Shown here: positions 476 through 49,471 of the stretch, piece after piece
How the letters are laid out: every line of letters starts with the position of its first letter
How positions within the stretch are numbered: position 1 is the stretch's first letter
Source: a virus
Length of the DNA stretch: 60,836 bases
Strand: one strand, 5' to 3'
IMG/VR virus record: IMGVR_UViG_3300020005_000005
Coordinates: 1 to 60,836 of that record
Notes under the pieces: model-generated
The model's input: the letters and a program-made list of their open reading frames with translations, nothing else
Databases searched by the model: none
What the model was told of the DNA's origin: nothing
Made by a program: the position numbers and the translations under genes

Positions 476-516
476 AGTCGAGCATTGGGGTCTCGCGGGG
501 TGTGCTTATCCCCCCT

Positions 517-560
517 ATACTAAAGTTGATTACTTTATTGATCAAAAACGACTTTAGTAT
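517..560 (+). promoter_or_regulatory. Leader hairpin upstream of the first operon gene
   Basis: ATACTAAAGT (517-526) and ACTTTAGTAT (551-560) form a perfect 10-bp inverted repeat. TTGAT (526-530) and ATCAA (541-545) can extend pairing inward. It lies 50 nt upstream of the chosen ATG at 610, so it would be in the 5' leader of the mRNA. There is no T tract after it, so a simple terminator is unlikely; an operator or RNA control element is possible. Confidence 0.4.
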
Positions 561-609
561 CATCCCTTTGGTGGACAACCTTTGGTATCCTTTTTGCGTT
601 ATAAGGGGT

Positions 610-1353
610 ATGGACTACAAAACAATAAAATACCCGGACGGGCAGATATCTGTAGAGATTACTGATTTCGACGGACCAATCAAAAAGAGGATTAATAGTT
701 ATGAGGATCTGATAGGGATAGTGTCTGCAGGCGAGGTGCTCCGCCACCAGGGTAAATCGTGCGATCTATTTATTCCATGCCTTTTGGGGCAGCGGAGTGA
801 TAGGCGCTTTGGTCAAGATCAATCCTTTGATCTTAAAGTGATAGCGGGGCTGATCAACTCGGGCGGTTTTGGCAATGTGTCAATACTGGATCCACACAGC
901 GATGTTGCCTTAGCCCTGATAGACAGATCAACCAAGGTATCTTCTTACCAGTATGTCGCCCAGGCGTACGCAGAGGAGGGGTCTCCTACCTTAGTGTCTC
1001 CGGACGCGGGGGCCTATAAGAAGGTTTTTGAGTACGGTCAAAAGCTGGGAGCGCCAGTAGTGGCGGCAGTCAAGCACCGTGACAAGGATGGCAAGATCGA
1101 CCTTTCTTTTATTGGGGACGTTGCAGGGCAAAAATGCCTGATAGTGGATGACCTGGCTGACGGGGGATACACCTTTGTTTTGCTTGCAGAAGCGCTTCGC
1201 AGACAGGGTGCCATCAGAGTCGCGCTCTACGTCACGCACGCCTACTTTAATAAGGGTTTTGGTTTATTAGCCCCCCTTATAGACAACATTTATTGCACCA
1301 ATTCCGTTAAAGATATCGTAGACCCACTTGTAACACAATACAATGTCATATAG
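610..1353 (+). CDS. prs: PRPP-synthetase family enzyme (Prs; possible ADP-ribose pyrophosphokinase, Adps)
   Basis: This 247-aa protein has the Prs layout: YPDGQ near the N-terminus (where Prs has FPDGE), RSDRRF in the position of the catalytic RQDRK loop, LDPHSD in the position of DLHA, and the phosphoribosyl-binding loop VDDLADGGYT near the C-terminus. Prs makes PRPP from ribose-5-phosphate and ATP. Phage homologues called Prs can instead be Adps, which pyrophosphorylates ADP-ribose in the NARP1 NAD+ rebuilding pathway. I chose the ATG at 610 because family similarity begins there and the upstream GTG extension crosses a hairpin. The end overlaps the macro gene by 11 nt. Family assignment is strong; substrate is unproven. 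Confidence 0.85.
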   Translation: MDYKTIKYPDGQISVEITDFDGPIKKRINSYEDLIGIVSAGEVLRHQGKSCDLFIPCLLGQRSDRRFGQDQSFDLKVIAGLINSGGFGNVSILDPHSDVALALIDRSTKVSSYQYVAQAYAEEGSPTLVSPDAGAYKKVFEYGQKLGAPVVAAVKHRDKDGKIDLSFIGDVAGQKCLIVDDLADGGYTFVLLAEALRRQGAIRVALYVTHAYFNKGFGLLAPLIDNIYCTNSVKDIVDPLVTQYNVI

Positions 1354-1822
1354 AGAAGTACAAGGAAATCTAATCACCCTTGCCCAGGAGGGGGAATTTG
1401 ACCTCATCGCACACGGCTGTAATTGCTTTTGTACCATGGGGGCGGGTCTAGCCCCCCAGATGGCAAAGGCCTTTGGATGTGACAAGTTCCCCCTGGAGCA
1501 TGTTGATTATAGAGGTGATATCAACAAATTAGGGCAGATCGACGTCGGCGGCTTCAGATATTTGGGTAATGACTTTTTTGTAGTTAACTGTTATTCACAA
1601 TATGGTTTTGGGGCAAACCACGAGGAAGGCAAAGTAGCACCACTCGACTATGAGGCCCTGATCCTATGCCTGCGCAAAATAGGTCATATTTTTAAGGGTA
1701 AACACATTGGACTGCCCCAGATAGGGTGTCACCTTGCTGGGGGGGATTGGGAGGTGGTAAAAGAGATAATTAAGAAGGAATTGTCAAAATGTGATATTAC
1801 TATTGTAATTTATAAACCATGA
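1343..1822 (+). CDS. Macro-domain ADP-ribose-binding protein (Poa1p/TARG1-like)
   Basis: This 159-aa single macro domain opens with the family-type GNLITLA. HGCNCFCTMGAGLA forms the ADP-ribose-binding region, and LPQIGCHLAGGDWEVV near the C-terminus matches the second signature of the Poa1p/TARG1-like branch. Such proteins bind ADP-ribose or remove phosphate or ADP-ribosyl groups from ADP-ribosylated molecules. It is wedged between the Prs-like and Nampt-like genes, with an 11-nt overlap upstream and an ATGA overlap downstream. That points to a role in ADP-ribose handling within the same NAD+ pathway. Whether it hydrolyses ADP-ribose-1''-phosphate, reverses ADP-ribosylation or only binds is not visible from sequence. 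Confidence 0.85.
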   Translation: MSYREVQGNLITLAQEGEFDLIAHGCNCFCTMGAGLAPQMAKAFGCDKFPLEHVDYRGDINKLGQIDVGGFRYLGNDFFVVNCYSQYGFGANHEEGKVAPLDYEALILCLRKIGHIFKGKHIGLPQIGCHLAGGDWEVVKEIIKKELSKCDITIVIYKP

Positions 1823-3261
1823 GAATAAATCCTTTACTTTTAACAGACTACTACAAGACGGAGCACTACAAGATGTACCCCCTCGGTACTTCTATGATCT
1901 ATTCCAACCTGACTCCACGCAAGAGTAGGCTACCAGGGGTCGATGCTGTTGTCGTCTTTGGTGTTCAATATTTTATAAAAGAGTACCTTATTAAAAGGTT
2001 TGATGAGGACTTCTTTGATAGGTCCTGGGGGGATGTGCTGGAAGAATACCGCTTTGCTGTCAACACTGATACAGCCCACATCGAGGCACTACACCGTTTG
2101 GGGTACTTACCTATCAGGATAAAAAGTCTTGCTGAGGGGTCTTTATGCCCTATAAGGGTACCTATGTTAACTATCGTAAATACCCTTCCTGATTTCTTCT
2201 GGCTGACTAATTACTTGGAAACATTGATGAGCAATGTCTTGTGGCAACCTATTACTTCGGCCACCATTGCTTACGAGTACAAGAAATTACTAAATAGGTG
2301 GGCACGCATGACAGGGGGAGATGAAAGTTTTGTGCCCTGGCAGGGGCACGATTTTAGCTTTAGGGGTATGTCTTCTCCTGAGTCAGGCATGACATCCGCT
2401 ATGGGCCACCTCTTGTCATTCACCGGTACTGACACCATACCCGCTATATACGGCCTGCGCGATTACTATAATGGACAGGGTCTGATTGGCGCCTCTGTGC
2501 CTGCAACAGAGCACAGCGTTATGTGCATGGGTGGCGCTTACTCAGAGCAGGAGACTTTTGAAAGATTGCTCGACCTTTATCCTACCGGAATCCTTTCAGT
2601 CGTCTCAGACACGTGGGACCTGTGGCACGTCTTGGGTACTATCTTACCTAATTCAAAAGACAAAATAATGGCCCGAGACGGTAAACTGGTGATCAGGCCC
2701 GACTCAGGGGATCCTGCTGATATTCTGTGCGGACAATCAAAAGATAAATGGACAAGGAGTATTAAAGACATTCCCAAACAAAAGGGGGTTATAGAGTTGT
2801 TATGGAATATCTTCGGGGGCACTGTCAACGCCAAGGGATACAAAGTACTTGATCCGCACATTGGGGCCATCTACGGCGACTCAATTACTTTGGAGAGAGC
2901 AGAGGACATACTGTCCCGCCTGGCAGTCAAAGGCTTTGCCTCTACCAACGTGGTGTTAGGTATTGGTTCCTATACCTATCAGTATAATACGCGCGACACC
3001 CTGGGCTTCGCCGTCAAGGCGACGTACGGAGAAGTAGATGGTGTAGGCAGAGAGATCTTTAAAGACCCAGTCACTGACGACGGTACAAAGAAAAGTGCCA
3101 AGGGGCTTCTTGTCGTTCACAAGGGCGACGGCGGTTATGTGCTCAAAGATCAGCAAACAGTTGACGGAGAAAGAAGGGGAGAACTAGACACCGTCTTTGT
3201 TGATGGTATGATAATCAAAGAGGAATACTTGGATAATATAAGAACAAGATTAAATTTTTAA
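1819..3261 (+). CDS. nadV: Nicotinamide phosphoribosyltransferase family enzyme (Nampt/NadV; possible Namat)
   Basis: At 480 aa this is full length for the family. Conserved blocks are the N-terminal LLTDYYKTEHYKMYP, DFSFRGMSSPESG, the VPATEHS segment with the catalytic-type histidine, VVSDTWD, and IRPDSGDP in the phosphate-binding region. Nampt joins nicotinamide to PRPP to give NMN. In NARP1 phages the related enzyme Namat joins nicotinamide to ADP-ribose pyrophosphate and gives NAD+ directly. The start ATGA overlaps the macro gene stop, so the three genes look translationally coupled. No NMN adenylyltransferase is seen in the window, which fits NARP1 or reliance on the host enzyme. Confidence 0.9.
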   Translation: MRINPLLLTDYYKTEHYKMYPLGTSMIYSNLTPRKSRLPGVDAVVVFGVQYFIKEYLIKRFDEDFFDRSWGDVLEEYRFAVNTDTAHIEALHRLGYLPIRIKSLAEGSLCPIRVPMLTIVNTLPDFFWLTNYLETLMSNVLWQPITSATIAYEYKKLLNRWARMTGGDESFVPWQGHDFSFRGMSSPESGMTSAMGHLLSFTGTDTIPAIYGLRDYYNGQGLIGASVPATEHSVMCMGGAYSEQETFERLLDLYPTGILSVVSDTWDLWHVLGTILPNSKDKIMARDGKLVIRPDSGDPADILCGQSKDKWTRSIKDIPKQKGVIELLWNIFGGTVNAKGYKVLDPHIGAIYGDSITLERAEDILSRLAVKGFASTNVVLGIGSYTYQYNTRDTLGFAVKATYGEVDGVGREIFKDPVTDDGTKKSAKGLLVVHKGDGGYVLKDQQTVDGERRGELDTVFVDGMIIKEEYLDNIRTRLNF

Positions 3262-8827: not shown

Positions 8828-9484
8828 ATGGCTCTTCCTGTTATCTATATAATAATTTCTCCAACTAACCGTATTTATGTCGGTCAGACTCGTGATTTTG
8901 AAAAACGAATAAGTTATTATAAAAGATCTAAATGTAAGGGACAAACACTATTGCACGCGTCTTTGAGAAAATACGGCTGGGAACAGCACACGTGTGAGGT
9001 AGTTGTCAAAACCAGGGCAGAAATTCCTCAATGGGAACTAACTCTTTTAGAGCAAACAATCATGGATCATTACCGCTCGGAGGGTTATGAATTGATGAAT
9101 CTAAAGGAGGCCGGTTCTTGGGGTAAACACTCGGAAGAAACAAAATTAAAAATGAGCGTTTCTCGCAAGGGTACCTGCCTCGGAACAGATCATCATAATT
9201 TTGGTAAACACCCGTCCAGAGAAACTCTTTTAAAAATGAGCCTCATAATGAGAGGTAAGCACAAAGGATCAAAAAGTCCGTCAGCCGTGCCTGTGTGGCA
9301 ATGTGAAAAAGACGGCACAAAAATAAAAAGATGGGAAGCGATGGCAGAGGCAGCAGAAGGCTTAAATATTAAATACACAAACATATCCAGATGTTGTAGG
9401 GGAACCAGACTTACTGCGTACGGATTTGTGTGGAAATATACAGAACCAAAATTACCCATAGTAGCGAAACACACTACTAGGTAA
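8828..9484 (+). CDS. Free-standing GIY-YIG homing endonuclease
   Basis: This 218-aa protein has the GIY-YIG catalytic core in variant form (VIYIIISP, then IYVGQT, then a conserved Arg). DNA-binding NUMOD3-type repeats follow (GKHSEETKLKMS, GKHPSRETLLKMS), and a C-terminal IENR1/NUMOD1-like helix-turn-helix ends GFVWKY. Such enzymes cut a cognate site in a co-infecting relative so that their own gene is copied in. It is one of five intact copies in the window. Unlike the others it appears to have its own promoter-like box. Confidence 0.9.
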   Translation: MALPVIYIIISPTNRIYVGQTRDFEKRISYYKRSKCKGQTLLHASLRKYGWEQHTCEVVVKTRAEIPQWELTLLEQTIMDHYRSEGYELMNLKEAGSWGKHSEETKLKMSVSRKGTCLGTDHHNFGKHPSRETLLKMSLIMRGKHKGSKSPSAVPVWQCEKDGTKIKRWEAMAEAAEGLNIKYTNISRCCRGTRLTAYGFVWKYTEPKLPIVAKHTTR

Positions 9485-9670: not shown

Positions 9671-10015
9671 ATGTGCGTAGTTTCAAATACAGGGGACTAC
9701 TGGGGGCAGAGATTACATCCTTGGTCACCTTATACACCACCACTTCCTTACATTCCACCCGCTCAGATGCCCGATATAACCAAAATCGTCATTAATCCTA
9801 CCGGGCCTACCAAGGATGACTTTGACAATTTAAAAAAAGAGGTACAGATCATGAAGGAGCAATTGGCCCGTGCCAAGGAGTACGACAAAGCCAACGGAGA
9901 ACCAGACTGTGAGATAGAAGACAAAATGGCATTTTTAAGAGAAGTGGCCAAATTGGTTGGTATTGACTTGGATGAAGTACTTAAGAAAGACTCCGCAAAC
10001 GCCTCCTTATCCTAG
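9671..10015 (+). CDS. Hypothetical phage protein (VVSNTGDYWGQ type)
   Basis: This 114-aa protein opens with CVVSNTGDYWGQ, a motif I associate with a widespread but uncharacterised phage family. A Pro/Tyr-rich segment and a coiled coil at about 55-80 (DFDNLKKEVQIMKEQL) follow. It is the second gene of the unit headed by the box at 9491. Its function is unknown. Confidence 0.6.
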   Translation: MCVVSNTGDYWGQRLHPWSPYTPPLPYIPPAQMPDITKIVINPTGPTKDDFDNLKKEVQIMKEQLARAKEYDKANGEPDCEIEDKMAFLREVAKLVGIDLDEVLKKDSANASLS

Positions 10016-10024
10016 AGAGTTTTT

Positions 10025-10039
10025 TGGCACGGTTTTTGA
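10025..10039 (+). promoter_or_regulatory. Sigma-54-like promoter box for the tRNA and RNA block
   Basis: TGGCACGGTTTTTGA, with GG at 10026-10027 and TTG ending at 10038, followed by CATATAATAA. The predicted start near 10051 falls one base before the tRNA 5' end at 10052. That position coincidence is good evidence that the box is a real promoter for the tRNA and the structured region behind it. Confidence 0.65.
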
Positions 10040-10051
10040 TCATATAATAAC

Positions 10052-10129
10052 CGCGCGGTAAGGAAGTGGTCTATCCGCCCAGGCTCATAACCTCGGAATC
10101 GTTGGTTCGAATCCAACCCGACGCAACCA
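10052..10129 (+). tRNA. tRNA-Met (CAT), initiator-like
   Basis: A 78-nt cloverleaf with CCA encoded. The anticodon CAT is at 10086-10088 in loop CTCATAA, and the T arm is GTTGG-TTCGAAT-CCAAC (101-117 of the 10,000s). The 3' end GCAACCA and the first base C give the unpaired C1/A72 end typical of bacterial initiator tRNA, and the D-loop length also matches. Odd points are an extra A that must bulge from the acceptor stem, a C/C mismatch in the anticodon stem, and AGG/CCT instead of the GGG/CCC pairs of a normal initiator. It could be a decayed or specialised initiator, or an elongator or Ile (CAT) tRNA. Confidence 0.75.
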
Positions 10130-10650
10130 GACATTTAAAAAAGGCACGGCAGAACAAGATCTCACAACTTAATCCTCGGATTGATCTCAACGCACTGCCG
10201 TGCTGGCTTCCCACGAGAAGCCAAGATTGATTTCGAGGATTATTTTTTGCCCTTTGGATAGGGAAGGATCTCTCCTGTACTGTTACCAGAAACAGCCTCT
10301 AAACCCTGGCACAACCCGATACAAGGGCGCCGTGTCGTCCGCGTACAACAAACCGTACGCCGACCACGTTAAAGAGTTTAATTGAGGAAATGGGCCTTCT
10401 ACTACTTGCTACCCGCCTCGGCCCATACGGTACACCTCACGATAAGATAAAGGGTACTCAAGATAGCAATCCTCTATAGGGGGTAGGGGGTTGCTACTTG
10501 CTTATCCACGGCGCCCGTAGCCCCTCGCTTCGCTTCGTGGCGACGTGTAGAGCACCGCGGGGACGTGATCAGCCCCCGTTTCCTTCTCTAAGAGATAGAG
10601 CCACACGGTGACAAGCAAACAGGTATTCCCCTCAAAAAATAGGGGAAGGG
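10130..10650 (+). ncRNA. Candidate large structured RNA
   Basis: This stretch of about 520 nt has no convincing gene but many long helices. 10143-10152 pairs with 10195-10204 (10 bp, one G-U). 10205-10210 pairs with 10217-10222. 10170-10178 pairs with 10234-10242 (9 bp), crossing the first helix as a pseudoknot. 10331-10346 pairs with 10355-10368. 10383-10387/10435-10439 encloses 10390-10396/10420-10426. 10441-10446/10501-10506 encloses an 11-bp hairpin, 10464-10474/10486-10496. Further helices are 10506-10510/10536-10540 and 10558-10562/10574-10578, and a final hairpin is 10626-10632/10641-10647. Its position behind a phage tRNA recalls GOLLD and ROOL RNAs, though I cannot assign it to either. 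Confidence 0.55.
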
Positions 10651-10740
10651 GAAATGAAGGGGGCACGTCCCGACAGGATGCTTGATTTTAATAAAAAAAC
10701 GGTCGCGGAGGTCCGCCATTTTCAAACTAAAGTCTTAGTT

Positions 10741-10875
10741 ATGAGCAACCTTCATCTCGACAGGCCGGATTTAATGCTTACTTATCTAGTTGCTTCCGTC
10801 CTCGGATCTATAAGCATGCACTACGTAGCAATGCGGTTTTTCGAGAAAAAGGGCACTAATCGTGTAGTATCATAG
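10741..10875 (+). CDS. 44-aa membrane protein
   Basis: From ATG 10741 the frame encodes a 44-aa protein with one hydrophobic segment at about residues 12-30 and a basic end. The same frame is open back to ATG 10654, but the added 29 residues are Arg/Lys-rich without features and begin right after the final hairpin of the structured RNA, so I prefer the shorter form. A single-span membrane role is the only thing the sequence suggests. Confidence 0.4.
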   Translation: MSNLHLDRPDLMLTYLVASVLGSISMHYVAMRFFEKKGTNRVVS

Positions 10876-11205: not shown

Positions 11206-11388
11206 GTGGAAAGAGGATCTGTTATTGACAACCAGGAGCAAAAAATCGATGGAAGGATCAAGGTGTGGGTAACAGTCAAGAAAAAGGACGGGACAAAAGA
11301 GCGCCTTTTTTATTATTGGGACGAGGCCAGTAAGCAGCAGAAATACTACGATAACCTGTATAAAAATCACCCCCCGTGCCCACTATGA
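11206..11388 (+). CDS. Short hypothetical protein with GTG start
   Basis: This 60-aa protein begins at GTG 11206, directly after the upstream TAG. It is charged and beta-rich (KVWVTVKKKDGTKE) with a Tyr-rich C-terminus. The GTG has no in-frame ATG alternative in the first part. The stop overlaps the ATG of the GIY-YIG gene at 11385, which supports translation through the junction. Confidence 0.5.
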   Translation: MERGSVIDNQEQKIDGRIKVWVTVKKKDGTKERLFYYWDEASKQQKYYDNLYKNHPPCPL

Positions 11389-12215
11389 AATATTATGTCT
11401 ATCGTCATATTCGCCCAGACAAGAACGAGCCCCTTTACATAGGCTTGGCTAAGAAAGCGAAGAAGTTTAATACTATTAAAAACGAATACGCACGAGCCTA
11501 CGCTCACAGCAAAGATCATAGAACTGAATTTTGGCATAACATATTTAACCTGTGTAATAAGAAAATTGAAGTTGACATTCTTTATGAATCCGATGATTGG
11601 AAAGAAATCAATGAAAAGGAAATAGAGTTTATAAAACTCTACGGGCGTGCTGATTTGGGTCTGGGCCCCCTAGTAAATTTCACCAACGGCGGCGAGGGTA
11701 ATCATGGAACAATAGTCACGGAGGAAACAAGACGCAAAAGAAGCGAGTCCATGAAGGGTAAAAATACCGGCCCAATAACGGAGGAGCATAGACAAAACTT
11801 AATCAAGTCCCATCTAGGATATAGCCCCACGGAGGAACATCGTAAGAATTTAAGTATAGCGGGTAAAAAACGCTATGAAGATCCAGTAGCGCGTCTTGTA
11901 ATGAGTCAACGAATGATTGGTCGCGTGTTTACCGAAGAATGGAAACAAAACGGTAGTAAGGCTAGGCTAAAATTTATGGCGGAAAATCCTGGCCATTGGG
12001 AAAGCATAAGATTAATCAATGATAGGGCTGTTGTTAAATTAACACTGGCTGGTGAATTTGTTCAAGAATATAAATCACTACGTGAAGCCGCCAAAGAAAA
12101 CGGAATGAAAAGCAGTTCTGGAATTGGTGCGGTTGTAAGAAAAGTAGGCAATAACAAAACGGCGTACGGATTTAGGTGGGCATTTAAAGAGAACTTTGTT
12201 CTATGCCCCAATTGA
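11385..12215 (+). CDS. Free-standing GIY-YIG homing endonuclease (divergent)
   Basis: This 276-aa protein has a divergent GIY-YIG core (YYVYRHIRP, then LYIGLA), unlike the other four copies. A linker with NFTNGGEG follows, then several NUMOD3-type repeats (TEETRRKRSESMKGK, TEEHRQNLIKSHLG, TEEHRKNLSIAGKKR). A C-terminal NUMOD1/IENR1-like helix-turn-helix contains LAGEFVQEYKSLREAA and ends GFRWAF. I chose ATG 11385, overlapping the upstream stop. The last 13 nt overlap the start of the 5'-3' exonuclease gene, as expected for an enzyme parked beside a conserved replication gene. Confidence 0.9.
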   Translation: MKYYVYRHIRPDKNEPLYIGLAKKAKKFNTIKNEYARAYAHSKDHRTEFWHNIFNLCNKKIEVDILYESDDWKEINEKEIEFIKLYGRADLGLGPLVNFTNGGEGNHGTIVTEETRRKRSESMKGKNTGPITEEHRQNLIKSHLGYSPTEEHRKNLSIAGKKRYEDPVARLVMSQRMIGRVFTEEWKQNGSKARLKFMAENPGHWESIRLINDRAVVKLTLAGEFVQEYKSLREAAKENGMKSSSGIGAVVRKVGNNKTAYGFRWAFKENFVLCPN

Positions 12216-23684: not shown

Positions 23685-24162
23685 TAGTTCTCGTTGTGGA
23701 CCTACCGTCATCAAAAGTATTCTGGCCTACTACGACATAGAGGCTTCGGAGGATGAGATTTGCCGATTATGCGGTCACACTTTTGAATATGGTTGCGATG
23801 ACGCTGGCATGAAGGCTGCTCTGGAGCATTACGGACTCCGCGTGGCTATCTACAACAACTCCAACTTCCAGCAAATAGCCTACTGGATCAAGAGAGAAAT
23901 ACCGGTGATTGTCGATTGGTTCACCGGCGGAGTTCAGCCAGGTCCGGCCGATCTACCTAACGGGCACTCAAGCATTGTGGTAGGACTCGACGAGGACAAG
24001 ATACATTTGCTAGATCCTGAAGATGGGAATATCAGACATGTTGTGCGAGAAGATTTTCTCCGTTGTTGGTTTGATTTTAAAGGTCTTGACGCGCCTTGCA
24101 TAGATTCTTGGGATCAGTTGATATTACGTCAAATCATTGTTCCGTACAAGGTTAATTTTTAA
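23653..24162 (+). CDS. C39-like cysteine peptidase
   Basis: This 169-aa papain-fold domain resembles peptidase family C39. The catalytic cysteine lies in SRCGPTVIKSIL (C15), the histidine in NGHSSIVVGLD (H105), and an aspartate in LLDPEDG (D121). C39 domains cut after double-glycine leaders in bacteriocin exporters, but here there is no transporter, so the target is unknown. I chose ATG 23653 over an upstream TTG. Its neighbours are sugar transferases upstream and terL downstream. Prohead processing or cutting of a host protein are both possible. Confidence 0.7.
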   Translation: MIKVPAFIQSDSSRCGPTVIKSILAYYDIEASEDEICRLCGHTFEYGCDDAGMKAALEHYGLRVAIYNNSNFQQIAYWIKREIPVIVDWFTGGVQPGPADLPNGHSSIVVGLDEDKIHLLDPEDGNIRHVVREDFLRCWFDFKGLDAPCIDSWDQLILRQIIVPYKVNF

Positions 24163-24166
24163 AAAT

Positions 24167-24781
24167 ATGAATATAGGTATTTATGTTATAACATCTCCCG
24201 TTAATAAACTATATATAGGTCAGAGTTGGAATATTTCTCGCAGAGAGGAAATTTATCAAAATAATCAATGTAAACATCAACCAAAAATATTAGCTTCTCT
24301 AAATAAGTATGGTTGGCCGGCCCACAAATTTGAAGTAGTCCTCTACCTAGAAGAAAAAACCAACCAAGCAATTATGGACTATTGGGAGCAGTTCTTCATG
24401 GACTTCTACAGGGCGCAAGATTATGAATTGTTGAATATTAAAGAGGGGGGAAGGGGAGGCAGACACTCCGAGGATACCAAATTTAAAATAGGGCAAGCGG
24501 GCAAGGGTAGAAAACATTCAGAAGAGGTCAAACAAAAAATAAAAGAATCGGTAAAAAAATCTTGGGAATCTGAAACAAATAGAAGTAGAAATAAACCGTC
24601 AGACAACCCAAATGCGATACCTATATTACAATTTACTAAGTCGGGTGAATTTGTTAAAGAATGGCCCAGTATTGGAGCCGCGGGTAAAGTATATAATAAC
24701 GCCAGAAGTTATATAAGTATTTGTTGTAAAACAGGTAAGGGGATCTCTGCCGGCTTTAAATGGGAATATAAGAATGTCTAA
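24167..24781 (+). CDS. Free-standing GIY-YIG homing endonuclease
   Basis: This 204-aa protein has the core NIGIYVITSP, then LYIGQSW, then NISRREE. NUMOD3-like repeats follow (GRHSEDTKFKIGQAGKG, RKHSEEVKQKIKESVKKS), and the IENR1-like end contains FTKSGEFVKEW and GFKWEYKN. The ATG at 24167 lies 4 nt after the protease stop, and the last 8 nt overlap the terL start. Only this gene separates the protease from terL. It is thus an intergenic insert beside one of the most conserved phage genes. Confidence 0.9.
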   Translation: MNIGIYVITSPVNKLYIGQSWNISRREEIYQNNQCKHQPKILASLNKYGWPAHKFEVVLYLEEKTNQAIMDYWEQFFMDFYRAQDYELLNIKEGGRGGRHSEDTKFKIGQAGKGRKHSEEVKQKIKESVKKSWESETNRSRNKPSDNPNAIPILQFTKSGEFVKEWPSIGAAGKVYNNARSYISICCKTGKGISAGFKWEYKNV

Positions 24782-28919: not shown

Positions 28920-30128
28920 ATGCCAGGAGGATCCGATATTGATCGTGATATTAACAAGGACTTAGCCGACTTCGGCAAAAAACTTAAAGAACAAGCGCTC
29001 GCCAAGGGTATTCAAACACCTCCGGCGGACCAAAATACTCAGGTTGCTAATGTGCAACCTACACAAATATCAACACAGGCCGCCCAAATAGCGGCTATCG
29101 TTGAACCAACACCTCCGGCACCTGCCGCTGCTACTCCCACCCAGCCGTCTGTGACGCCTGTAAAGGATGAGCCTACAGGACCGGACTCTACCTCGACGGA
29201 TCCTCCTTTGGATACCGAAGAACCAGTACCAGCCTGGGACAAAGACCTGGAAACACCACCAGTCAAGGACGAACCTTTGACATTCGAAAGTTTAGGCAGT
29301 GCCTTAAAACTGGAGAAAACGCCAAAGTCCACCGCCGAACTGGTAGAACAATTTACAGCACAGCAACTCAAGATTAAGGCATTGGAGGCCTCCCAGGAGC
29401 AATCCTTGGATGACATCGATCCTGAACTCAAGGAAGTAGTGCAATTTGCCAAGAATAAAGGGAATTGGAAACAGTTCCTCTCCACCAAGGTAGTCAATTT
29501 CAACAATGCCGATCCAGTAAGTCTGTTCAATCAATCGGTTGAACAGCAATTTAAAAAGCCGGACGGGTCCATCGATTTTGACGCCGCCGACGCAGAACTT
29601 GCTCAGATTCCCGATGCGGTAAAACGCGCTCAGGGTAACATAATGAAGCAAAATCTGATCGCCCAGCAGGAGAACAGACGGGCGCAAATCTTGCAGGAGG
29701 CTGAACGCAGGCAGACGGATTTTAACCGTAACCTAGCAGAGGCCGCGAAGAAATTGCCTGAATATCTAACCAAAGACAAGGTAGGAATTCAGGTAGAACC
29801 CAAACACGCCGATTTCCTCTATGAGGGAATAAGAAATGGAAAGTTAGTTGAGAAACACCTCGGAAAAGTTGATATCAGTGGTATCGCTCCCGAAAAGTTA
29901 ATCAGAACACTAGCCATGGCAGAATGGGGAGAACGCATCAGCAAGACGCAATTCGACCAAGGCGTTGTTCAAGGCAAAAAGCAACTCTTAAAGAGTACGC
30001 AAAACGTGCAACTCAACACGCCGGCCATTCCGCCGGCACCAAACGTGGCTGACCCAAATAAGGTAGAAACACCGGCTGAGAAAATGGCCAAGGTGATGAG
30101 CCGAAACAAGCAGCCCGGATCACTTTAA
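28920..30128 (+). CDS. Scaffold or head-assembly protein candidate
   Basis: This 402-aa protein has a Pro/Thr/Ala-rich, acidic, probably disordered region (about 40-115). A long helical and coiled-coil part with many Gln and Glu follows, and a short basic end (KVMSRNKQPGSL). Position between portal and major capsid, together with this composition, is typical of scaffolding proteins, whose basic C-terminus often contacts the coat protein. No protease domain is seen within it. The call is inferred from context and composition. Confidence 0.65.
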   Translation: MPGGSDIDRDINKDLADFGKKLKEQALAKGIQTPPADQNTQVANVQPTQISTQAAQIAAIVEPTPPAPAAATPTQPSVTPVKDEPTGPDSTSTDPPLDTEEPVPAWDKDLETPPVKDEPLTFESLGSALKLEKTPKSTAELVEQFTAQQLKIKALEASQEQSLDDIDPELKEVVQFAKNKGNWKQFLSTKVVNFNNADPVSLFNQSVEQQFKKPDGSIDFDAADAELAQIPDAVKRAQGNIMKQNLIAQQENRRAQILQEAERRQTDFNRNLAEAAKKLPEYLTKDKVGIQVEPKHADFLYEGIRNGKLVEKHLGKVDISGIAPEKLIRTLAMAEWGERISKTQFDQGVVQGKKQLLKSTQNVQLNTPAIPPAPNVADPNKVETPAEKMAKVMSRNKQPGSL

Positions 30129-33137: not shown

Positions 33138-33836
33138 ATGGCATTAGACGTGAGTTTGTCGTTCGAGTCAATTACTGCCGATAGGCTGACTGGAACTTTA
33201 CTGGATAATACAGTGTATGGCACCGGAGGTAATCCCGCACGAGCCGCCGTTGGCGTATGGATGACTGGGACAAAAAGAAAATTTGATGACACCGTTGATT
33301 CGACTTTAACGGTCAGCGGAAATTCAAATAGTCCAAGTACGGATGTTTCATGGACCTTCAACATACCTAAAGACGGATGGTTCCGCTTCTTGTTTGTAAT
33401 CATTCCTGATTACGCCGGAGGCACAACTTATGCGTTATATGATGCCGTTCGAAATTCTTCAACCAACGTAGTCTATCGTTCTAAACAAGCGGGCAATGTA
33501 GGGCACGCGTTGACAGATACCGCCTGGTGGGAAGTTATAGCCGATCCTTCTTCTCTAGCTTCTAATGAGGGAGAGCCCAATGAGTCAGCCAATATTGCAT
33601 CCGACGTGTATGAGATAGTACCAACTCCTTCGGGGGAGTTAGCGTTTGCCAGTGCTATAGCTATTGCTTCAACCGAGGGTGGAGATGCCGATAGAGAGCA
33701 AAGTGTTCAACTTTATGAATTACTTGCTGTTCTTATAGATGGCGCATACATTCGTTCAGATAGATCGTCTTTTAGTCAGGCTGAAAGAATATGTAGAAGA
33801 ATAGAAACTATTTATACAGAAAATGGATTGATATGA
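33138..33836 (+). CDS. Structural protein candidate at the head of the fibre region
   Basis: This 232-aa protein has a beta-rich N-terminal half with Thr/Ser/Gly-rich stretches and WTFNIPKDGWFRFLF. Its helical C-terminal part begins near SGELAFASAIAIAST. No catalytic motif is seen. It precedes the GIY-YIG gene and the first fibre gene and overlaps the former by ATGA. It is probably part of the tail or fibre attachment. Confidence 0.5.
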   Translation: MALDVSLSFESITADRLTGTLLDNTVYGTGGNPARAAVGVWMTGTKRKFDDTVDSTLTVSGNSNSPSTDVSWTFNIPKDGWFRFLFVIIPDYAGGTTYALYDAVRNSSTNVVYRSKQAGNVGHALTDTAWWEVIADPSSLASNEGEPNESANIASDVYEIVPTPSGELAFASAIAIASTEGGDADREQSVQLYELLAVLIDGAYIRSDRSSFSQAERICRRIETIYTENGLI

Positions 33837-34660
33837 GTATAGGAATTTATACTATTATTTCTCCAACCAGCAAGGTCTACGTAGGACAAAGTTGGGATAT
33901 ATCAAGACGCTGGAGGTCTTATAATAGACTGAGTTGCTCTGATCAACCTGCTATTTATAATTCTCTCAAGAAGCATGGTCCAGAGGCACATGATTTTGAA
34001 ACTATTTTAGACTTCACACAAGACGTCACCCAAGCAGAACTAGACTGGTGGGAACAAATTATGATGGATTATCATCGTGAAAAGGGAGACGAATTACTTT
34101 TTATAAGAGACGCCGGCTCTAATGGTAAACAAGCAGAAGAAACTAAAAGGAAACTAAGTGAATCTAAAAAAGATAAAAAAAGAAAACCATTTACGGCAGA
34201 ACATCAACAAAAATTAAAAGATCGCTGGACATACCAACCTCATCCCTGGGAAGGTAGAAATCATTCGGGCGAATCTCGACAAAAAATGAGTAATTCTCAT
34301 AAAGGAAAAAATACAGGAAATAAAAATCCTATGTTTGGTAAAACTCATTCCGAACTAGCAAAATTAAAAATTAGCAAAGCGTGGAAAGGCAAAAAACATC
34401 GTCCTGAGTCTATTTTAAAAATACAAAAAGCTACTGCGGGCGAAAATAATCCGATGTATAGTAAGTTCGGAATAGAGCACGGTGCCTCCAAGACAGTTGT
34501 TCAATTAACCAAAGAAGGAAAATTTGTTAAAAACTGGGATTGTATATCGGATGCCGGTAGATTTTTGCAGATGAAAAGTACATCTAACATAAGTGGGTGT
34601 TGCAGAGGCAAGCGTAAAACCGCGGCAGGATTTAAATGGAAATACAATGTCAGTAAGTAG
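33833..34660 (+). CDS. Free-standing GIY-YIG homing endonuclease
   Basis: This 275-aa protein has the core IGIYTIISP, then VYVGQSWDISRRW, and the conserved Glu in WWEQIMMDY. It has an extended set of NUMOD3-type repeats (HSGESRQKMSNSHKGK, HSELAKLKISKAWKGK, HRPESILKIQKA) and the IENR1-like end KEGKFVKNW...GFKWKY. The start ATGA overlaps the upstream stop and the end overlaps the fibre gene start at 34647 by 14 nt. This is an exact insertion into a structural gene junction. Confidence 0.9.
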   Translation: MSIGIYTIISPTSKVYVGQSWDISRRWRSYNRLSCSDQPAIYNSLKKHGPEAHDFETILDFTQDVTQAELDWWEQIMMDYHREKGDELLFIRDAGSNGKQAEETKRKLSESKKDKKRKPFTAEHQQKLKDRWTYQPHPWEGRNHSGESRQKMSNSHKGKNTGNKNPMFGKTHSELAKLKISKAWKGKKHRPESILKIQKATAGENNPMYSKFGIEHGASKTVVQLTKEGKFVKNWDCISDAGRFLQMKSTSNISGCCRGKRKTAAGFKWKYNVSK

Positions 34661-48096: not shown

Positions 48097-48798
48097 ATGA
48101 ACACAATAGGAGTTGATGATATCATTGCAACAGTTCAGTCAAGCGGTAAAACAATCACCAGTCACGATAAGTTAATATTTCGTCAATGGATTGCTGTGCT
48201 GTGCTTACCAGTGCTTGGCTTGGCCGAGGAAGATGTAAAAACGGTAGCGCTGTTACCCATCAATGGAACAGTTCCAAAGCCAGATGATGTTCGCTGTGTT
48301 ATTGATATTTCTTTGTTTGATGTAAACGGTTGTCCGCTTGCCCACAAATTTCGCAGAGGCGGCCAACGTATTTATAGGGATGATAGAATATTACCGGCGG
48401 CATTGGTAACTCCACCGGATAACACAGCCCAAGCACTTTCTGGCCTAATACCAGTAGACGTTTCGGAAGATGCTTATTCCATCTTTTTGGGGACTAATGC
48501 CGATAGAGTTACCACGATTCTTTTAAGATATTACGCGGCCGCATTAGACGATGGGGGCTATCCACTGATACGCACCGACGAGAGTATGGCAATTCTTTTA
48601 TTCCTGCACTACATGATAGCCATGCGGGATAATGAAAACCAAAGCGAAATTCAAGCTAAAGAGATCCGTTGGAAACAGGAGGCAGATCGTGTGAAGGCTC
48701 ATAAAAAATCTATGAGTGTAACTAATGAGGTAATGAAGTACATCACAAATAGTGTCTGGATGCGTGGGATTCCAAACTTCAATTTCTCTCAGTATTAA
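48097..48798 (+). CDS. Connector or tail-tube protein candidate
   Basis: This 233-aa protein has an N-terminal helical segment (SHDKLIFRQWIAVLCLPVLG). A beta-rich central part follows, including SEDAYSIFLGTNADRVTTI, then a basic helical end. Its size and place are those of tail tubular or neck proteins of podovirus-like phages. It ends 1 nt before the GIY-YIG gene at 48800, which separates it from the stabilisation-like protein. Confidence 0.5.
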   Translation: MNTIGVDDIIATVQSSGKTITSHDKLIFRQWIAVLCLPVLGLAEEDVKTVALLPINGTVPKPDDVRCVIDISLFDVNGCPLAHKFRRGGQRIYRDDRILPAALVTPPDNTAQALSGLIPVDVSEDAYSIFLGTNADRVTTILLRYYAAALDDGGYPLIRTDESMAILLFLHYMIAMRDNENQSEIQAKEIRWKQEADRVKAHKKSMSVTNEVMKYITNSVWMRGIPNFNFSQY

Positions 48799-48799
48799 A

Positions 48800-49471
48800 A
48801 TGAAACAAGTTGGTATTTATACTATTTTCTCACCATCGAATAAGGTGTATGTAGGTCAGAGTTGGAATATAAAACATCGTATAGCCTGTTATTCCGGTGG
48901 ACAGTGTGCTCATCAATCAAAATTAAACGCATCGTTTAAGAAATACGGTTGGGAAAACCACAAATTTAATACCGTATTATATCTAAATGAGAAAGTAGAA
49001 CAAAAGATTCTCGATTTTTGGGAACAATATCTTATGGATTTCTACCGGGCTAGAGGGTATGAATTGATGAACATTAGGGAGGGTGGTTCCCGAGGGAAGC
49101 ATACGGAAGAGACAATAAAAAGAATGTGCATAGCACAAAAAGGAAGAATAGTTTCTGAAGAAACTAAGAAAAAACTTTCTGCAATAACTTTAGCCCAAGG
49201 TATGTGTGGAGAAAATCATCCCATGTGGGGTAAAAAACATTCAAAAGAATCTAGGCTAAAAATGTCATTATCTCACTTGGGGTGTAAAAATAGGGCAAAA
49301 GCAGTCATTCAAACAGATAAGTACGGTAATATTAAGGAATGGTTTTCTGCTACGGAGGCTGCCTCTTCGCTAGGAATAAGGAGCATGTCTAATATAAGCG
49401 CGTGCTGTAGAGGTAAAATAAAACAAGCCTACGGCTTCGTCTGGAAATACAAAGAGAAGACGTGCGCATAA
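48800..49471 (+). CDS. Free-standing GIY-YIG homing endonuclease
   Basis: This 223-aa protein has the core VGIYTIFSP, then VYVGQSWNIKHR, and FWEQYLMDFYRARGYELMN. NUMOD3-like repeats follow (GKHTEETIKRMCIAQKGR, HSKESRLKMSLSHLG), then the IENR1-like end with GFVWKYKE. The ATG at 48800 comes right after the connector gene. The end overlaps the GTG start of the next large gene by 10 nt. It is closest in layout to the copy at 24167 and resembles the decayed copies at 53529 and 54228. Confidence 0.9.
   Translation: MKQVGIYTIFSPSNKVYVGQSWNIKHRIACYSGGQCAHQSKLNASFKKYGWENHKFNTVLYLNEKVEQKILDFWEQYLMDFYRARGYELMNIREGGSRGKHTEETIKRMCIAQKGRIVSEETKKKLSAITLAQGMCGENHPMWGKKHSKESRLKMSLSHLGCKNRAKAVIQTDKYGNIKEWFSATEAASSLGIRSMSNISACCRGKIKQAYGFVWKYKEKTCA

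Follow-up and report, generated by a model that had tools for sequence, protein, structure and literature searches.

The gene-free gap and its surroundings

The virus record analysed here, a single metagenomic contig of IMG/VR, was studied over its whole length (60,836 bp, hereafter the window). Its genes are tightly packed and lie nearly all on the + strand. Terminase and portal proteins, both encoded in the window, are 22–27% identical to those of Crassvirales and of a group of environmental contigs, and by this comparison place the virus far out among crAss-like phages. A related terminase is present on a contig of a Cytophagales MAG; because of this relative, and of a promoter type known from Bacteroidota (see below), the virus probably infects a member of that phylum.

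Between the stop codon at 10015 and the next ORF, 638 bp (10016–10653) carry no gene. This is the sole internal gap of at least 250 bp, the one other being the truncated 5' end of the window. It contains, in this order, a promoter box, a tRNA and about 555 nt with a predicted fold (Table 1). The coordinates originally given for a gene-free block, 10130–10650, were essentially right, and the structure extends to about 10682. Directly upstream of the tRNA unit, positions 9671–10015 encode a small protein (MCVVSNTGD..., phrog_10166), which has 48–59% identical relatives in phages that are otherwise unrelated.

Table 1. Features of the gap and of its downstream border. Domains and helices are predicted; z-scores are relative to dinucleotide shuffles, for domain boundaries that were chosen after seeing the fold.
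Feature	Position	Strand	Description
Sigma54-type -24/-12 box TTGGCACGGTTTTTGAT	10024..10040	+	Predicted +1 at ~10051
Initiator-like tRNA	10052..10129	+	CAU anticodon, encoded ACCA; Rfam and blastn
Domain I	10143..10252	+	Pseudoknot S1/S2, helices below; z -4.55, 0/200 shuffles
S1	10143-10152/10195-10204		10 bp
S2	10170-10180/10232-10242		11 bp, prolonged by 10180-10187/10224-10231
Domain I hairpin	10204-10210/10217-10223		
U-run after S2	10244-10249		Terminator-like
Domain II	10325..10516	+	Multibranch; z -4.58, 0/200 shuffles
Domain II closing helix	10325-10334/10507-10516		10 bp over 170 nt
Domain II arms	10341-10346/10355-10360; 10390-10396/10420-10426; 10459-10462/10497-10500		
Domain II hairpin	10464-10477/10483-10496		14 bp
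Domain III	10551..10682	+	Long stem; z -4.06, 0/200 shuffles; pair probabilities 0.90-0.98
Domain III stem	10560-10566/10665-10671; 10572-10577/10659-10664; 10578-10584/10649-10655		
Domain III hairpin	10626-10632/10641-10647		
Downstream small ORF	10654..10875	+	73 aa (start at 10654) or 44 aa (ATG at 10741)

Stop-free stretches in the six frames of the block gave codon scores of -0.34 to 0.14; the genes scored 0.25 ± 0.11 and wrong frames -0.12 ± 0.15. The two highest values belong to 58 codons within domain II (0.09) and to the stretch that leads into the downstream ORF (0.14). All are at wrong-frame or intermediate level and none is like a typical gene; codon usage says that the block is non-coding. 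A reading frame running across it, one of the observations that the original prediction had named as speaking against an RNA, was not found with coding-like codon usage, and the conceptual peptides of the block had no meaningful Pfam match. One minus-strand peptide contains YADDT, which recalls reverse transcriptase; Pfam gave nothing for it. The downstream small ORF has an intermediate codon score (0.121) and no family match, and its 73-aa form overlaps domain III.

The tRNA upstream of the block, as announced in the original prediction, was recovered as a match to Rfam RF00005 (10053–10125, 37.9 bits, E 1e-5), and is similar by blastn to annotated phage tRNA-Met genes. By comparison with related phage tRNA-Met it starts at C10052, which by eye creates a C1·A72 mismatch, accompanied by two more mismatches in the acceptor stem. 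The C1–A72 mismatch is a trait of initiator tRNAs. ARAGORN did not call the tRNA at 10052–10129, which may stem from the acceptor mismatches. In two other loci, Rfam tRNA matches span 161 nt (L211:611-771) and 175 nt (L252:11312-11486), suggesting inserts (introns) in tRNA genes of large phage tRNA arrays.

The promoter-like box that had been noticed ahead of the tRNA is present, and reads TGGCAC-GGTTT-TTGAT. It has the layout and the standard spacing of the published sigma54 consensus, TGGCAC-N5-7-TTGCT (PMC12316311), with A in place of C at -12, a position at which most boxes of the window carry A or T. On this motif it qualifies as a sigma54 (RpoN) promoter, and we infer that RpoN uses it. 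With up to three mismatches the window contains eight copies of the box, where 0.71 would be expected; none of 100 shuffles reached eight. Its positions include 9490, 10024, 22039, 28841, 28867 and 45590; boxes precede 9535, the tRNA, 45647 and the gene at 28920, which has two. At normal spacing, the +1 of the box at 10024 falls on about the first base of the tRNA.

In large viral contigs of IMG/VR the same box is found before tRNA genes or arrays, before many ORFs, and before ORFs starting MAKDVIIGIDL, which we take to be DnaK. The sigma54-type box TTGGCACGRTTTTTGAT recurs in this window and in loci L211, L212, L217, L219 and L247. It appears to be a phage promoter, and the phages seem to have borrowed a host chaperone-type RpoN promoter. 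In Bacteroidota, chaperone genes are linked to sigma54, and such control of chaperones is reported to be enriched in the phylum (PMC12316311).

Predicted fold of the block

The sequence behind the tRNA is predicted to fold into three independent domains. In scans of the whole window, where the background has a mean z of about -0.4 (sd 1.2), domain I ranked first by stability of 1349 segments of 135 nt (z -6.3). Domain II ranked first of 479 segments of 201 nt (z -5.1); its rank is somewhat favoured, because that segment had been deliberately put into the scan and is also met by a locally denser grid. For the block as a whole z was about -3.9, a stability that none of 100 shuffles attained. Stability beyond shuffles is suggestive of a functional RNA, and is not a proof of it.

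The original prediction had described the block as packed with helices. This was borne out by comparison with shuffles: seven helices scored at least 20 within 120 nt (shuffles 1.75 ± 1.25, maximum 5), and there were three strong short-range helices, compared with a shuffle mean of 0.34 and a single shuffle in 400 reaching three. Longer helices than those first named are also predicted, among them the 14-bp hairpin and the 10-bp long-range helix of domain II. Both arms of the pseudoknot initially pointed out, S1 crossed by S2, are present; with loops of 17, 14 and 27 nt it is sterically possible. When the block was shuffled 400 times, a crossing pair of similar strength arose twice, and two others exist elsewhere in the 60 kb, so that the pseudoknot alone is not decisive.

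The two strands were compared. The fold of 10126–10690 had a z of -3.91 on the + strand and -2.61 on the - strand; for 10253–10690 these values were -3.05 and -1.37. The better folding of the + strand points to RNA rather than to DNA palindromes. A single non-coding gap with inverted repeats in a tightly packed genome might also be a replication origin, a packaging site or a recombination site, in which the hairpins act as DNA. Besides the strand difference, the helices are rich in G-U pairs, the block is GC-rich (0.48–0.56, compared with 0.45 for the genome) and it lacks iteron-like direct repeats, having one diverged pair only. A DNA-level element is very improbable.

S2, which has 18 pairs when its prolongation is included, is immediately followed by six U. 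This arrangement looks like an intrinsic terminator that could end the transcript near 10250, and counts against an RNA of about 550 nt. The tRNA transcript might then end or be attenuated at this stem and U-run (10170–10249), the rest of the block being a long structured leader or trailer through which the downstream small ORFs (10654/10741 onward) are processed or expressed under control. The next genes, at 10654/10741 and 10936, are indeed on the same strand. However, regulating small ORFs would hardly call for a leader of 500 nt that has two more domains, of which one is the genome's most stable 201-nt segment, and the Rfam scans gave no match to a riboswitch or leader family. We consider such a cis-acting RNA rather unlikely.

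Comparison with known RNAs and search for relatives

GOLLD and ROOL are large phage RNAs found beside tRNA genes, which form RNA-only nanocages and have no known function. The setting is the same here: terminase and portal genes in the window, and a tRNA separated from domain I by about 14 nt. The GOLLD of env-38 likewise sits downstream of a Met-tRNA (PMC12286853). Like the block, GOLLD RNAs are phage-encoded, often located by tRNA genes, large, ornate and devoid of a protein product; unlike the block (about 555 nt), many of them exceed 800 nt. ROOL shares with the block its length class (the model has 574 positions), the setting in phages and tRNA islands, and pseudoknots. The lncRNAs of phage K (Kayvirus) are unclassified and abundant, lie beside tRNA genes, and were likened to GOLLD and ROOL by place and abundance only (PMC9241854). 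They resemble the block as long RNAs adjoining phage tRNA genes, and differ in host phylum and in that their expression was measured; the likeness is one of setting, the sequences not having been specifically compared. In T4, RNAs C and D of the tRNA cluster are stable, transcribed with the phage tRNAs and of unclear role; they are much shorter than the block.

The original prediction had placed the block in a GOLLD- or ROOL-like setting and had seen in it the signature of neither RNA. That it is a large structured RNA in such a setting is well supported: by the folding statistics, the strand bias, the context of promoter and tRNA, and the lack of any sign of coding. As expected of a large structured phage RNA linked to a tRNA, the block is long and non-coding and more structured than chance would make it. 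The second point stands as far as covariance models can tell, since neither GOLLD (RF02032) nor ROOL (RF03087) matched in the window at E≤10; the ROOL model was silent in all 14 control genomes too. Rfam scans of the block, strict and permissive (E≤10), gave no family match, whether to group I or II introns, tmRNA or RNase P. The phage origin, the adjoining tRNA, the length and the multidomain fold with a pseudoknot would suit a divergent GOLLD or ROOL that escaped the models, but with both models and the permissive scan of all Rfam negative, the chance of this is minimal.

No homologue of the block was found by nucleotide search of phages and plasmids, in 50 viral records related by terminase or by a neighbour protein, in 11 further records with the promoter box or a related terminase, or in 390 bacterial genomes, all of the order to which the Cytophagales MAG belongs. 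One 34-nt match among these genomes sits in unrelated sequence. Covariance models R1 and R2, each built from the single sequence of domain I or II, detected no homologue in 49 records. Relatives carrying the block were not obtained from IMG/VR with terminase and portal peptides or from terminase alignments, nor with the promoter motif in IMG/VR, nor with the tRNA core followed by the CGCAACCA end. The block is absent from the phrog_10166 relatives L093 and L097, and none of 80 loci with a NAMPT neighbourhood is related much beyond the NAD genes. A 17-mer of S2 had six matches, all in unrelated contexts. As no homologue turned up in these searches to show conservation or covariation, our claim does not go beyond a strongly predicted structured RNA.

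The lack of relatives and the raised GC would also fit relict or foreign DNA with no present function, either what is left of a mobile or intron-like element that had inserted behind the tRNA, or a chimera of the assembly. The flanks are in keeping with such an origin: a GIY-YIG homing endonuclease ORF lies at 8828–9484, and the ORF at 11376–12215 is alike by eye, with no Pfam match. Against this, the long helices are undecayed, promoter and tRNA are in place, and no group I or II intron was matched even at E≤10. Such a relict is distinctly unlikely. ORFs 8828–9484, 24137–24781, 33833–34660 and 48752–49471 all match a single site in locus L093. They look like one GIY-YIG homing endonuclease family, an assignment that for 8828–9484 comes from Pfam.

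A candidate large RNA and its proposed cotranscription with the tRNA

We favour, with a probability of roughly 0.6, the reading that the block encodes a large structured RNA without known relatives, and that a host RpoN-type promoter drives it together with the phage tRNA. In its setting this RNA resembles GOLLD, ROOL and the phage K lncRNAs, while it would belong to neither GOLLD nor ROOL. It would be the product of a single-copy gene of a deep-branching crAss-like phage, non-coding and about 500–600 nt in size. Transcription from the RpoN (sigma54)-type promoter would start at the 5' end of the tRNA and yield a primary transcript comprising tRNA and RNA, and a cut behind the encoded ACCA would release the two. 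The RNA would then fold into its three compact domains (pseudoknot, multibranch and long stem) and accumulate as a stable species during infection. On its molecular role we can only speculate: by analogy with other tRNA-linked phage RNAs it would most plausibly be structural or binding, as an oligomer or as a decoy that captures a factor of translation or of the stress response.

More tentatively, the RNA might be the first known example of a new class, as the original prediction had suggested: large multidomain phage RNAs that a host sigma54 stress-type promoter expresses along with a tRNA, and that possibly assemble as RNA only, like ROOL and GOLLD. An unrelated RNA in the same setting in another phage lineage would suggest that large RNAs have come to accompany phage tRNAs more than once, and this would help to find the purpose of the niche. 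The promoter context provides a testable link to host sigma54 control.

Near the start of the window (502–3261), an NAD-related set consists of a phosphoribosyltransferase/PRPP-synthetase-like ORF, an ORF that by eye resembles a macro domain, and a nicotinamide phosphoribosyltransferase; these genes perhaps restore NAD+ against a host defence.
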